Source: Promethearchaeota archaeon
GTDB taxonomy: Archaea > Asgardarchaeota > Lokiarchaeia > Sigynarchaeales > SOKP01
DNA length: 64,000 nt
Direction: 5' to 3'
Assembly (NCBI GenBank): GCA_019057775.1
Contig: JAHLWT010000307.1
Span: 1-64,000, forward strand
Below are positions 9,766-15,589 of the stretch, in pieces. The notes below the pieces were generated by a model, which did not search any database, was not told the origin of the DNA, and worked only from the letters and a program-made list of their open reading frames with translations. Both the position numbers and the translations under genes were made by a program. Within the stretch, counting starts at the first letter, position 1. Each line of letters begins with the position of its first letter.

Positions 9766-10596
9766 TTATAAGTCTTCTTCTTCTCTATTATAGAGAGATG
9801 GCGGGGGCTGTACTTCTTCGAGTGGTCTGCTTTTAAGTCTATCTACAAATGCTTCAAGTTCCATCTCCGCATTTTCTATTGAGGATTCAATTTCAATTCT
9901 AACATTCTCTTCGCCTAAAACATAATTACCATGACTAGGAAAAAAACTATTTATTTTTAACGTGTTCAAAATTTGTAGAGAGTTGATGTATTCTGAAATT
10001 GAGCCAGATTCATAAATGTTAGTGATCGCCCCTTTAAAAAGGGTGTCCCCTGTGAAAATATAATGTTGATACGGTTCATAAATACAGATGCATCCTGATG
10101 TATGACCGGGAGTCTCAATAATTTTGAGTATAACGTTTCCTAAATCAATAATATTCCTGTCTTCAAGCCAAATGTTAATTTTTAAGTTGGACAAATCCAC
10201 ACCCCATTTCTTACCTTTCGTAATTAATTCATCTGAGTGTTGAATCTTGGTAGCTGCCCATCTATGAGCCGCTATTAGACAATGGAGATACGAATTTGAA
10301 CTAATATGATCAAAATGGGCATGCGTGTTTATTACTATATTAATGTCTTCAATTTTTAGCCCTACTTCAGTCGTTAATAAATAATTTAAGCTATTAAACT
10401 TTGAAATTATACCTGTGTCGATTAGAACATTTAAATCCTCCCCAATAATTAGAAACACATGTGATCCTGCCCCTTTAGCATGAAATTGATACACGTTCGG
10501 TTTAACTAGATTCAAAATATAACCTTGCTTACCATAAATGTCATCTTTTTTAATTAAACGGGGAGTAAAAATAGTTTCCTCTTTTCTTTGCGTCAT
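9766..10596 (-). CDS. Metallo-beta-lactamase-fold hydrolase
   Basis: The 276-aa protein has the full MBL metal-ligand set: NTHAHFDH (motif 2), a TPGHTSG turn (motif 3), FTGDTLF (motif 4) and a FPSHGN (motif 5). This pattern fits glyoxalase-II-like thioesterases with a dinuclear metal site. The N-terminal 40 residues precede the usual start of the fold and end with a Gly-rich HAKGAGSHVFLI strand. The tail (residues 255-276) is acidic. Its stop lies 3 bp from the convergent GTPase stop. Substrate unknown; a hydroxyacylglutathione-like thioester or nucleic-acid role is possible. Confidence 0.85.
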   Translation of the reverse strand: MTQRKEETIFTPRLIKKDDIYGKQGYILNLVKPNVYQFHAKGAGSHVFLIIGEDLNVLIDTGIISKFNSLNYLLTTEVGLKIEDINIVINTHAHFDHISSNSYLHCLIAAHRWAATKIQHSDELITKGKKWGVDLSNLKINIWLEDRNIIDLGNVILKIIETPGHTSGCICIYEPYQHYIFTGDTLFKGAITNIYESGSISEYINSLQILNTLKINSFFPSHGNYVLGEENVRIEIESSIENAEMELEAFVDRLKSRPLEEVQPPPSLYNREEEDL

Positions 10597-10772
10597 ATTA
10601 ATTCACAAATAGCACTTTCAAAATGATATTTCTAAGTATATCTTGTGTTAAAAATTATAAAAATGAATCCTTTTGATAATAATAGACAAATATATAATTT
10701 TACTCTTTAAAGTAGTCTAAGCCTATTCTTATAAAATATATGCCAAAGTATTACACCTCTAAAATGTCTGAC

Positions 10773-10837
10773 AAATACAATAAAAAAAGAAAAATAAAAA
10801 ACTTGAAAATATTTATTCCTGTTTGATTTTAGGTAAA
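10773..10837 (-). terminator. Conserved 3' block after actin gene 1
   Basis: This non-coding block begins 13 bp after the actin stop codon and is nearly identical to 12958-13027 after the second actin. In the mRNA sense it reads TTTACC, ATCAAACAGGAATAAATA, then TTTTCAAG, and ends in a long pyrimidine tract (TTTTTTATTTTTCTTTTTTT). The U-rich end suits archaeal transcription termination. The upstream part is not simple U-tract sequence and is conserved better than the neighbouring codons, so it may be an RNA-binding or mRNA-processing signal. Confidence 0.55.
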
Positions 10838-10850
10838 CATATTTGACCCT

Positions 10851-11996
10851 TTAGAAGCAACGGTGAATTACCTGTGGACCCATCTCTTTATATTCACGCC
10901 TAGTAACCCACATGCGATGGAATGTTTTCAGCGAACTCAGAATTGATCCACCAATCCATACGGAGTACATACGTTCTGGGGGGGCAATAATCTTTACGTC
11001 TACGCTCTCTGGGATTTGTTCTTTTATCTCCTTGGTTAAGCGTTCTTTAATGCCGGGGAACATAGTACTTCCGCCCGAAAGAACGATGTTTGAGTAAAGA
11101 TCTCTTCGCAAATCGACATCGCACTCTGAGATGGCACCTACGATTACATCGTCTAAAGGTTCTAACTCTTTACCAATTACAGATGGATTAAAGAAACATT
11201 CCGGAGCTAAGAAGCGCTCTACACCAACGTTAATAGTCTCTCCGTCAGGGAGCATGTAACTTTTTTCCATTCCAGCGACCTTCTTCGAGAGCATCATTTC
11301 TTTTTCCGGATCAATTGCAACATAACACAATTTCTCCTTGATATCTCTCACAATCTCCTTTTCAGCAGATGTCGTGAAAGAATATCCTTTCTGCCTCAAC
11401 AACCTCTGCAAGTAAGTCGTAATATCTCGACCAGCAAGATCTATTCTCTGGATTGCGTGGGATAAGGCAAAACCTTCGAAAATTGGAACTACGTGAGATA
11501 CACCATCGCCAATATCTATAACGCATCCGGTAGTACGCCCCGAAGCATATAAGGATAATACTGCTTGCATTGCGACATATAGAGCTGGAGTATTAAAGGT
11601 TTCAAACATAACCTCAGCCATTTTTTCACGATTAGGTCGCGGATTCAAAGGAGCCTCTGTCAAGAGAACAGGGTGTTCAGAAGGATCGATTCTAAGATCT
11701 GTATAAAACGTATAGTGCCAGATCTTTTCCATCGCGGTCCAATCTTCAATGATACCATGCTCTACTGGGAACATTAACTTCAGGACACCTTTGAGTTGCA
11801 TTGCTTCTTCTCCGATATAGTACTCTCTGGTATAGTGTTCTACGTCAGTCATAATACTCTCGTATTTAGGATACCCAATTAAGGTTGGGAATACTGAACG
11901 AGGTTGATCTTCACCGGCAAATCCATTCTTGGAGATACCTGTACCATTATCTACTACTAATGCTTTTGCATTTAAAAAAGATTCTTCTTCAGCCAT
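10851..11996 (-). CDS. Asgard actin (lokiactin), copy 1
   Basis: A true actin of 381 aa, close to the 375 of eukaryotic actin. It has phosphate loop 1 [15 protein letters not shown] near residue 16, phosphate loop 2 [11 protein letters not shown] near residue 160, the adenosine motif [10 protein letters not shown] near residue 308 and the actin-like C-terminus HRCF. It polymerises with ATP and works with profilin- and gelsolin-like partners in Asgards. It differs from the second copy (13040-14185) at one residue only, Val in MAEVMF where copy 2 has Ile, although about one base in five differs in the region compared. It is transcribed alone, with a conserved 3' block after the stop. Confidence 0.97.
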
Positions 11997-12279
11997 ATTT
12001 AATTTCAGCCTTGTTTGTTTTTAATTAATTAAAAATTTTTTTACTTAGATGACATATTAAGTGTATGATAATAATTGCAGAACATGTTTATAAACTTGAG
12101 TTAAAATGAATTCCAGACTTCTGGAACTCACTTAAGGAAAAAATTTCTAACAAAAAATATATATATCAGCATTTTCTTACTATGATTAATACAATTCGGA
12201 ACATCGAAAATTCATCAACTTCTAAAATCACGGAATTTATATTCTAAATAAAATAGAACTCAACCCCATATAGTAGAGC

Positions 12280-12831
12280 GTGAGTAATATGAAATTAGAC
12301 CGAGCTATCAAAGTGTTGGAAATTTTGAAATATATTCATGTAAATTCACCGTGTATTGCACCTGAAATTCGCGATTATTTAGGAATTGTTCATGAAAACC
12401 CTCCGTCCAAAGAGGAGAAAGATCTCTATAATGTCCTAAATGAATTAAATCGGGGAGAAAGCATCGAGAAAATACCGATTAAGAGAAAGGGACCCGGCGG
12501 ACCTAAGTTTAAACTCAAAATCTCGAATAATGGATCAAATATGTTGGCGCGCATTCGAGATTATGACCTTTTAACTAAAGGTAAAAGCTTTTCTGAACTT
12601 GATAAGAAGATACAGCTATTATCATTAGAACGCATGCTAAGGCTCTTCGGTTCGGATATTTATAATGTCATAGAATCAGCTCTGGAAACGATCATCGAGG
12701 ACCTGTTCAAAATAAATGTAGAAAATATTGACTATAAAAAGCAGATGGAGGTTGTAGATATTATTAATGGAGCGGTGAAAAGCATTCAAGAAAAGACGTC
12801 CGAGATCGCCACAATTTTTTCAAGTAAATAA
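12280..12831 (+). CDS. Putative winged-helix regulator between actin genes
   Basis: A 183-aa protein. Residues 1-90 look like a winged-helix domain with a helical start (AIKVLEILKYIHVNSPCIAP), a recognition segment and a basic wing (KRKGPGGPKFKLKIS). The C-terminal half is a helical, charged region (about residues 100-180) that could dimerise. No metal or ligand site is visible. It starts at GTG 12280 or ATG 12289; both are in frame. It is divergent from actin 1 and convergent with actin 2. Control of the actin genes is a possible role suggested by position only. The closest named family is not recognised. Confidence 0.65.
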   Translation: MSNMKLDRAIKVLEILKYIHVNSPCIAPEIRDYLGIVHENPPSKEEKDLYNVLNELNRGESIEKIPIKRKGPGGPKFKLKISNNGSNMLARIRDYDLLTKGKSFSELDKKIQLLSLERMLRLFGSDIYNVIESALETIIEDLFKINVENIDYKKQMEVVDIINGAVKSIQEKTSEIATIFSSK

Positions 12832-12957
12832 TAGTAAATCTTCGATAAAAGTGTTAATAAGGAATAAACAATGAATTATGAGAATACTTATATTTCCTCT
12901 CTAAGTTGAATTTGTCAGACAATTGAAAGATTTATAAGAAGATCATGTTTGCTTGAA

Positions 12958-13027
12958 AAATACAATAAAATAAAAAAAGAAAAATAAAAAACTTGAAAAT
13001 ATTTATTCCTGTTTGATTTTTGGTAAA
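12958..13027 (-). terminator. Conserved 3' block after actin gene 2
   Basis: This is the second copy of the block after actin 1. The two align over about 65 bases with a single base change (TTTTTGG against TTTTAGG on the plus strand) and one 5-base insertion (TAAAA) in the tract. In the transcript it ends in a long U-rich run and lies 12 bp after the actin stop. Its conservation exceeds that of the coding DNA beside it. Confidence 0.55.
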
Positions 13028-13039
13028 TCTATTAACCCT

Positions 13040-14185
13040 TTAGAAGCAACGGTGAATCACTTGTGGACCCATCTCTTTATATTCTCGTCGGGTGACCCAC
13101 ATGCGATGGAATGTTTTAAGTGAACTCAAGATTGAACCACCAATCCATACGGAGTACATACGTTCTGGAGGTGCGATAATCTTTACATCAACACTTTCAG
13201 GAATCTGTTCTTTAATTTCCTTGGTTAAGCGTTCTTTAATACCAGGGAACATTGTGGAACCACCAGAAAGAACTATATTGCTATATAAGTCCCTTCGAAG
13301 ATCTACATCGCATTCTGAAATAGCACCCACAATTACATCATCTAAAGGCTCTAACTCTTTTCCGATTACGCTTGGATTAAAGAAGCATTCAGGTGCTAAA
13401 AATCGCTCTACACCAACATTGATCGTCTCTCCATCGGGAAGCATGTAGCTCTTTTCCATTCCGGCGACTTTCTTACTCAGCATCATCTCCTTTTCTGGAT
13501 CTATCGCGACATAGCAAAGTTTCTCCTTGATATCTCTAACTATTTCTTTTTCTGCTGATGTTGTAAAAGAGTAACCTTTTTGTCTGAGTAATCTTTGCAA
13601 GTAAGTTGTAATATCTCTACCAGCGAGGTCAATTCTTTGGATAGCGTGACTTAAGGCAAATCCTTCAAAAATAGGTACGACGTGGGAAACCCCATCACCA
13701 ATATCTATAACACATCCAGTTGTACGACCAGAAGCATAGAGACTTAGAACTGCTTGCATTGCTACATAAAGAGCGGGTGTATTGAATGTCTCAAACATGA
13801 TCTCAGCCATTTTCTCTCGATTAGGTCGAGGGTTTAATGGTGCTTCTGTTAAAAGAACTGGATGTTCGCTAGGATCGATACGTAAATCTGTGTAAAAGGT
13901 ATAATGCCAGATTTTTTCCATTGCTGTCCAGTCTTCAATGATACCGTGCTCAACAGGGAACATTAACTTTAAAACACCTTTTAATTGCATGGCTTCCTCA
14001 CCAATATAGTATTCCCGAGTATAGTGTTCAACATCAGTCATGATGCTTTCATACTTGGGATAGCCAATCAGTGTTGGGAAGACAGATCTTGGTTGATCTT
14101 CACCAGCAAATCCATTTTTGGAGATTCCAGTACCGTTATCGACAACCAGTGCCTTTGCATTTAAAAAGCTTTCTTCCTCTGCCAT
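13040..14185 (-). CDS. Asgard actin (lokiactin), copy 2
   Basis: A 381-aa actin with the same nucleotide-binding loops and C-terminus as copy 1, and 380 of 381 residues identical. The DNA differs at many third positions, so the copies are old or evolve rapidly at silent sites and are held by strong selection on the protein. A candidate TATA box is at 14214-14226, placing the start of transcription close to the ATG. Its leader does not resemble that of copy 1, so the two copies may be expressed under different conditions. The plus-strand frame at 13092-13448 is an antisense shadow. Confidence 0.97.
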
Positions 14186-14213
14186 ATTTCTAATTCAGCT
14201 CTTAATTTTAATA

Positions 14214-14226
14214 GTTTTTATAATTT
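14214..14226 (-). promoter_or_regulatory. Candidate TATA box of actin gene 2
   Basis: On the minus strand the sequence reads AAATTATAAAAAC, preceded by AATC. It lies 29-41 bases before the ATG, which would give a very short mRNA leader. Assigned by pattern and spacing only. Confidence 0.35.
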
Positions 14227-14502
14227 GATTAATTTCTTCGATTAGTTCAATTTTCTAAAATTTTTTCTTAATTTTTTCTTACCACTTATCTTTAAATTGA
14301 TAAATTGCAAGATTAAAATTAAACTAATAATAAATTTTATGTTTATAAATTTTTTTGTATGTAAAATCGTTTTTATTTCTATGTAAAAAAGTTACGGGTT
14401 TTTAGTTGACATGGACAACAAATTATAGATCGATTTTAATAAATTTAAATTTGGAATCAAAAAATGTTAAAAAATTTTTAGAAAATTAAAAATTGTGGGT
14501 GA
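14227..14502. other. AT-rich intergenic region, nothing recognised
   Basis: Very AT-rich DNA between the actin 2 promoter and the MFS remnant. No open frame of useful length, tRNA or strong hairpin is seen. It may contain further upstream elements of actin 2. Confidence 0.4.
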
Positions 14503-14703
14503 AGCTTTATTTCTTCCTTAGGAAGTGTAGTAGGTCCGATACTTGGAGGGATTGTTTGGGATTATATTAGTCCACAATTTCCTTTTATAATTTCAATATT
14601 TGCTGAATTATCATTAATTCCACTCTATTTAATAGTAGTTTACTATTTAATACCACATCTGGCAGAAACTTACGAGAAAAAAAAAATAAGTAAGAGAAAT
14701 TAA
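14503..14703 (+). pseudogene. C-terminal remnant of an MFS transporter
   Basis: The open frame after a TGA at 14500-14502 has no start codon and reads SSLGSVVGPILGGIVWDY, typical of a major facilitator helix with the G-x-x-x-G-P-x-x-G-G motif. A second hydrophobic helix (LSLIPLYLIVVYYLIP) and a basic tail end at TAA 14701-14703. Only 66 residues remain of an expected 380-450, so this is a decayed fragment. The N-terminal part is not found upstream. It lies next to the 3' end of the Hdr/Flx array. Confidence 0.65.
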
Positions 14704-14713
14704 CAATTAGTAT

Positions 14714-14742
14714 AATAAATATATTTATTAGGAAATCCTAAT
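14714..14742 (-). terminator. Two adjacent palindromes at the end of the Hdr/Flx array
   Basis: AATAAATATATTTATT (14714-14729) is a perfect palindrome and ATTAGGA-AA-TCCTAAT (14727-14742) is a 7-bp hairpin that contains the stop codon of the last gene. They lie at the end of an 11-gene array and could stop transcription or protect the mRNA end. There is no long U-tract, so the call is tentative. Confidence 0.35.
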
Positions 14743-15589
14743 ATTCATCTGGGAGTTCCTTGAGCTCAGCAAGTGAAAATACTGGTCCGTCAGTACATAT
14801 AAACTTATTTCCGATATTACAGCGCCCGCATTTTCCAATTCCACACTTCATTCTCGCTTCTAAACTATTGAGAATTTGTTCCGGGCCCCAATTTAGTGCT
14901 TCCATAACGGCGATTGTAGTTTTAATCATTATTGGTGGCCCACAGACAACTGCAATAGCATTATCGGAACTTGGGGCTACTTTCTTCACGATGGGTGCAA
15001 CAAACCCTACTTCTTCGGTCCATCCTTCCGCCTCGCGATCGATTGTTAATACAATTTTAATATCGTCTCGTTTTTTCCATTCTTCTAAAACATCAGTATA
15101 TAACACTTCGCCAGGATCACGATTTCCATAAATTACGGTTATATCTCCATAATCTTTTCGATGCTTCTCATCAAGCAAATATATTACAAGAGATCTCAAT
15201 GTTGAAAAAGCAAATCCTCCACCAATAACAACAATGTTTTTACCCTTCATATCTTCAACGGGCCAACCATTACCGCATGGTCCCCTCACTCCTATGGTGT
15301 CTCCTATCTCGCTACTATGAAATCCTGTGGTAACAGTTCCCATCTTTTTAATTGTGAATTTAATTGTTCCTTCTTCAGTAGGGGAGGATGCTATTCCAAT
15401 TGGGCATTCTCCTTTTCCAATTAAACTAATTTCAGCAAATTGGCCAGGAATATAGTCAAATTTTTTATATTCTTCTTCTTTTTTAAATTCTAGTTCAATA
15501 GTTTTGATATCATTAACTTTGTTTTCTGTAACTATTGATTTAACCTTTGTGAGGTAAGGTATATATGGATTAGACAACTGCTTTCTCAT
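14738..15589 (-). CDS. FAD/NAD(P)-binding oxidoreductase subunit (FlxA/AsrB-like)
   Basis: A 283-aa protein of the ferredoxin-NADP reductase type. It has an FAD-binding beta-barrel with YIPGQFAEISLIG (residues about 47-59), a nucleotide-binding domain starting IVVIGGGFAFSTLRSL and a C-terminal [2Fe-2S] site KCGIGKCGRCNIGNKFIC with four Cys. This is the pattern of sulfhydrogenase gamma, AsrB, PyrK and FlxA proteins that pass electrons between NAD(P)H and Fe-S partners. It is the last gene of the array and overlaps the previous gene by 20 bp. GGAGG sits directly before the ATG, so the TTG at 15575-15577 with better spacing may be the real start. Confidence 0.88.
   Translation of the reverse strand: MRKQLSNPYIPYLTKVKSIVTENKVNDIKTIELEFKKEEEYKKFDYIPGQFAEISLIGKGECPIGIASSPTEEGTIKFTIKKMGTVTTGFHSSEIGDTIGVRGPCGNGWPVEDMKGKNIVVIGGGFAFSTLRSLVIYLLDEKHRKDYGDITVIYGNRDPGEVLYTDVLEEWKKRDDIKIVLTIDREAEGWTEEVGFVAPIVKKVAPSSDNAIAVVCGPPIMIKTTIAVMEALNWGPEQILNSLEARMKCGIGKCGRCNIGNKFICTDGPVFSLAELKELPDEY

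Follow-up and report, generated by a model that had tools for sequence, protein, structure and literature searches.

A clade-restricted block behind Lokiactin stop codons as a candidate transcription termination and mRNA 3′-end module

We analyzed a 64,000-nt stretch of DNA from a Promethearchaeota archaeon (contig JAHLWT010000307.1; the window), in which two Lokiactin genes, copies A and B, lie in tandem on the minus strand and are followed by the same non-coding block. From sequence comparison we read this block, with a probability of about 0.68, as a termination and mRNA 3′-end module of Lokiactin that is under selection in one Lokiarchaeal clade, with the tail of copy A acquired through an older recombination event. 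In the proposed mechanism (i) an interrupted U-tract with three runs of at least five U would be read by RNA polymerase and aCPSF1/FttA; (ii) a purine-rich element (28–29 bases, core RGGAAUWAAU), kept together with the U-tract, may determine where cleavage occurs, how strong termination is or how stable the transcript is; (iii) purifying selection would hold the module while synonymous sites are near saturation; and (iv) copy A, a mosaic, would have taken its 3′ third and tail from a block-bearing actin, which would place the tail behind both copies. The block would then mark an exact candidate 3′ end for the main cytoskeletal mRNA of archaea closely related to eukaryotes, and its upstream element is discrete and hence mutable. 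Among the titles and abstract openings surveyed, no paper deals with the 3′ UTR of Lokiactin or with recombination among Lokiactin genes.

Layout of the Lokiactin pair and of the block

The features, in window coordinates, are as follows.

10780..10801, minus strand: interrupted U-tract of A, probable terminator (T6 A T5 C T7 AT)
10802..10830, minus strand: conserved purine-rich element of A, core AGGAATAAAT
10831..10850, minus strand: variable spacer of A, 20 bases; 2/20 differ from L001, and 4/19 plus a gap from B
10851..11996, minus strand: Lokiactin copy A, 381 aa, mosaic coding sequence (Pfam Actin, 3.4e-132)
12280..12831, plus strand: gene between the actins, divergent from A and convergent with B; homologues at 28–41% identity
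12970..12991, minus strand: interrupted U-tract of B, same sequence as that of A
12992..13020, minus strand: conserved purine-rich element of B, same sequence as that of A
13021..13039, minus strand: variable spacer of B, 19 bases
13040..14185, minus strand: Lokiactin copy B, 381 aa (Pfam Actin, 1.5e-132)

Each stop codon is followed by the variable spacer (20 bases in A, 19 in B), by 51 bases that are identical in the two copies (10780–10830 in A and 12970–13020 in B, minus strand) and then by diverged sequence, and the U-tract lies 49 (A) and 48 (B) bases past the stop codon. The sequence-only reading had described a tail of ∼65 bases with one mismatch and one 5-base indel behind genes that differ at one base in five. 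The former is correct when counted from TTTACC onward, and the latter holds over the full coding sequence, with 217/1146 bases different (26, 8 and 183 at codon positions 1, 2 and 3). At fourfold sites 86/145 differ, and the two proteins are separated by a single residue change in 381 (V129I). A 39-base core pattern had two matches in the window, both with 0 mismatches, and 0 matches at up to 3 mismatches in 100 shuffles. When A was compared to B, 0/51 positions of the block differed vs. 14/59 in the spacer and the last 40 third positions (p = 8e-5); the purine-rich element alone had 0/29 differences (p = 0.004). Conservation comparable to the 3′ block was not observed on the 5′ sides of the two start codons in the A vs. 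B comparison.

Third-position G+C was 0.38 in A and 0.33 in B, and 0.19–0.36 in five neighbor genes, which agrees weakly with codon selection for high expression. The gene at 12280–12831, without a Pfam match, has homologues upstream of actin in L015, L016, L038, L039 and L051. In the gene-context comparison the upstream neighbor of B was common to block-clade relatives; homologues of this oxidoreductase gene lie upstream of actin in L003, L004, L008 and L044.

Copy number was compared on the genomes of relatives. Each of the reference genomes G001–G007 has one Lokiactin (≥99% identity), and in G008 there are two fragments that overlap and lie on separate contigs. A Lokiactin match at E ≤ 1e-240 was found in 56 of 83 genomes of the class, and two such matches only in G027, so that the pair in the window is unusual. 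The two G027 genes (L025 and L034) differ at 40/154 fourfold sites, and each tail opens with a GCCC-NNNN-GGGC hairpin, nearly identical in the two; this may be the same pattern in a different clade, or a mixture of strains.

Distribution of the block and divergence of the tails

In a scan of genome contigs the best 80 of 134 confirmed actin stretches were kept. The block lies directly behind actin in 8 of these best 80 loci (L001, L003, L004, L006, L007, L008, L044 and L060). The anticipated conservation on related actin tails is therefore partial: the block is kept in one clade, but is absent from the other 72 of the 80. We also built a sequence-only model of the block from 11 copies and ran it on 83 genomes of class Lokiarchaeia. 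At E ≤ 6e-9 it recovered ten places in 9/83 genomes, namely nine Lokiactin tails and one orphan tail, and the next best match was at 1.7e-4. Eight of the nine matched genomes had contributed to the model, and eight actin tails and the orphan of G007 are themselves model members. The match in G045, which was not used in building, is the tail of a gapped Lokiactin with 98% identity over residues 253–381. Scoring was limited to 72 candidates per genome and used strict filters, and for this reason weak copies could have been missed.

At L178:6351–7685 of G045 an FttA/aCPSF1 fragment and the Lokiactin 3′ part are linked by a run of N into one spurious reading frame, probably through a scaffolding join. 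An exact copy of 23 bases of the U-tract occurs on viral contig L116; the model match covers the U part only (E = 0.014), by eye the contig resembles an ordinary phage, and we judged this match to be chance.

The gene next behind actin is co-directional with it in A, L001, L003, L004, L006, L060, L147 and L178, and convergent in B, L007 and L008 (open reading frames, mostly unannotated). This difference in kind and direction among loci indicates that the block belongs to actin and not to the neighbor.

Divergence was measured in the 45 pairs formed by ten tails, that is, the 12 block copies without the G007 orphan and G045. The U-tract had 0 mismatches and varied in run length alone, its identity being inflated by T-rich composition. 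The 28–29 bases ahead of it differed by 18% on average, when compared to 44.5% at the third positions of the last 50 codons, 27% in the spacer and 24% in the 45 bases downstream, the latter two values being understated by gaps that were free to open. The element was less diverged than the third positions in 44/45 pairs, with L001–L003 as the lone exception (5/28 vs. 8/50). Four pairs without a common member, chosen after seeing the table, gave 16/112 differences in the element vs. 85/200 at third positions (p = 1.7e-7), and three of them that have a spacer gave 9/84 vs. 16/55 (p = 0.007). The purine-rich element is thus an island between faster-changing flanks. The suggestion that the part upstream of the U-rich tract is conserved too was borne out, and it makes the tail more than a plain U-tract. 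Because of recombination between species the pair counts are less independent, and such exchange could also carry tails about and mimic selection.

Tails of other genes were usable at 5/7 loci for EF-1A and at 4/5, 6/6 and 8/8 loci for three thermosome sets. EF-1A and one thermosome gene of these genomes are likewise followed by U-rich tails; parts of their sequence are conserved, though less so than in actin. Among eight gene groups, actin ranked second in excess over shuffled sequence (0.452), above EF-1A (0.198), thermosome (0.227) and a 324-residue gene near actin (0.357), and below only a gene beside EF-1A (0.512). In raw identity, taken over the best 50 columns, actin reached 0.817, EF-1A 0.724 and the three thermosome sets 0.646, 0.88 and 0.86; TCP_1 and TCP_2, thermosome sets whose letters seem to take in the last part of a convergent gene, were not counted as clean controls. 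The 3′ flank of the 324-residue gene (e.g., L003:1480–1560, minus strand) is conserved and non-coding, with 0.732 over the best 50 columns in six genomes, and that of the gene beside EF-1A (L191–L197) likewise.

The block itself is clade-limited, but an interrupted U-tract pattern stood behind 30 of 80 actin tails (78 loci from the best 80 of 134, L039 and L064 being left out, plus A and B), when 0.36 were expected from shuffles. Conserved U-rich ends are general in these genomes, so that it is the purine-rich element in front that stands out.

Mosaic coding sequences and rival readings of the tail

Segment trees were built from 46 full-length coding sequences with >94% protein identity (from the best 80 of 134 loci; L039, L051 and L060 left out). 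Over the first 360 bases B falls within the block clade (99/99) and A, though not decisively, with L015/L016 (80/88); a tree constrained to place A in the block clade was not rejected (AU 0.297), so that a foreign 5′ origin of A is suggested rather than proved. The middle segment gave no resolution. Over bases 751–1143 A grouped with L001, L003, L004, L008, L010, L014, L050 and L058 (98/89), and B with L006, L007 and L044 (99/94); A plus L015/L016 (AU 0.0044), A plus B (0.0076) and the whole block clade (0.0013) were rejected, the tested groups having been chosen partly after seeing the trees. PHI was 0.001 within the block clade without A, the lowest value that 1000 shuffles allow, and not significant over the 46 sequences (0.19). 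Lokiactin genes are recombinational mosaics, and nucleotide trees of Lokiactin need care, since lineages exchange coding DNA with almost no change in the protein. Because these genes do recombine, A probably gained its 3′ end by older recombination; most simply, A is read as a recombinant that owes its 3′ third and tail to a block-bearing actin. The coding sequences of A and B are mosaics of haplotypes that are present in other Lokiarchaeal lineages.

The main alternative of the sequence-only reading was gene conversion confined to the 3′ ends. As a rival to the main reading it would be a recent A–B exchange that made the tails identical, with selection weak or absent. Exchange as such is upheld by the mosaics and by a dip in A–B divergence over the last 40 codons, where 10/40 third positions differ vs. 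19.2 expected (p = 0.0015); it is only over the final ∼120 coding bases that A and B are nearest or near-nearest to each other (12/120 vs. 13–14 differences to others, a small margin), and TTTTCAAG is common to both and missing from the other aligned block copies. The dip, however, has p = 0.094 once corrected for window choice, a motif similar to that shared sequence (TTCAAG before the U-tract) occurs in L050, outside the clade, and the same block stands behind actin in nine other genomes. The adjoining neutral sites, inside the supposed tract, break the A–B identity (spacer 4/19 plus a gap; third positions 10/40), the spacer of A is nearer to that of L001 (2/20), and A and B as sisters over bases 751–1143 were rejected, in a group chosen after seeing other trees. 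A recent B-to-A copy fails because the spacer and last codons differ and the 3′ third of A groups with other species, and recent, 3′-limited conversion is accordingly quite improbable. The last 40 codons may have been exchanged between A and B at a later time, but not recently, since those sites and the spacer have diverged. A further alternative, that the block matters as DNA, marking a recombination or insertion point at which the actin tail is kept when DNA inserts, could draw on the variable gene content behind actin among relatives and on the second tail of G007. This orphan (L147:5749–5820, minus strand) has a stop codon, the last dozen or so actin bases and the full block, ∼6 kb downstream of the intact actin with other genes between. 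Of the 24 bases that end the coding sequence it matches 21, a score not above that of the best among 100 shuffles in which the last 12 bases were left in place, so that only the last dozen actin bases are secure; it is either a former second actin copy or the result of DNA inserted beside a duplicated tail, and the intact, gene-less block may simply be young. Inspection by eye of the DNA between the two G007 tails brought up neither an integrase nor a transposase, and variable gene content is expected to be common in these genomes anyway; we regard a role as DNA as very remote.

More credit, although still unlikely, is due to the proposal that the element serves Lokiactin mRNA as a regulatory site in its own right, with an RNA-binding protein or small RNA of its own, and merely lies beside an ordinary terminator. 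The element is conserved beyond the needs of the U-tract and is nearly confined to Lokiactin tails, and excerpts of one report give Lokiactin the highest transcript level of the four actin homologues of 'Ca. L. ossiferum' (PMC9834061), which is why control of this mRNA would matter. Against it, a covariance-model search of window positions 10000–14800 with Rfam 15 had 0 matches at E up to 1, and the suggested covariation was not found, with a near-zero RNAalifold energy and no compensatory change. A pattern search for the element in nine genomes gave 444 matches vs. 316 for the reversed pattern, a small excess obtained with a pattern whose AAG is one base off for most copies, and no set of co-regulated genes sharing the element was found in it; the element is also absent from other Lokiarchaeal clades. 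Thus, of the functions first proposed, a selected 3′-end signal is supported (nine genomes and the aCPSF1 motif), whereas binding of a protein other than aCPSF1, a small RNA, localization or processing found no backing in the Rfam and RNAalifold results. As a guess, cleavage positioning or termination strength comes first as the role of the element, and a separate regulatory site second. That RGGAAUWAAU and its neighbors form an actin-specific element through which a dedicated RNA-binding factor controls the fate of the Lokiactin transcript in one clade is a long shot. Eukaryotic actin mRNAs have regulatory 3′ UTRs, and such control, if true, would be an archaeal parallel to them.

The termination module and known terminators

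The reading as a termination and 3′-end module starts from the U-tract. In the excerpted text of PMC8716108 and PMC7515710, aCPSF1 binds U-tracts by its KH domains, efficient binding taking no fewer than two U4 runs in at least 18 nt, and the Lokiarchaeal aCPSF1 terminates transcription in M. maripaludis. The tract behind both A and B lies downstream of the stop codon and, as T6 A T5 C T7 AT over 22 nt, has the sequence described there (PMC8716108, in excerpt). An FttA fragment is present in the relative G045 (KH_TffA, 1.8e-17). Judging from motif and literature, termination is a probable function of the block. This kind of signal is already known, since the U-tract fits that of aCPSF1/FttA and EF-1A and one thermosome gene are also U-rich-tailed; the purine-rich element RGGAATWAAT is the part that known terminators leave unexplained.

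Many Lokiactins outside the block clade (L020–L034 and others) have a GCCC-NNNN-GGGC-like hairpin within ∼25 bases past the stop codon and before the U-tract. Among 79 tails (from the best 80 of 134 loci), a hairpin between stop codon and U-tract was frequent (mean z −1.10, 44% below −1). For the window this reading was set aside: the stretch before the U-tract has no stable hairpin in its two tails when compared to shuffles (z 1.10 and 1.27).

Compared with hairpin-plus-U (bacterial intrinsic) terminators, the window tails have the U-tract in common, but differ in that single-strand folding is no better than that of shuffles (z 0.29 and 0.46). With the aCPSF1/FttA U-tract terminators, signals of a type that Loki aCPSF1 reportedly uses, they share several runs of U4 or longer within ∼22 nt downstream of the stop codon. 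Unlike these, they have an actin-specific purine-rich element ahead of the U-tract, and the interruptions of the Lokiactin tract (A and C) are themselves conserved, with termination predicted from the DNA sequence.
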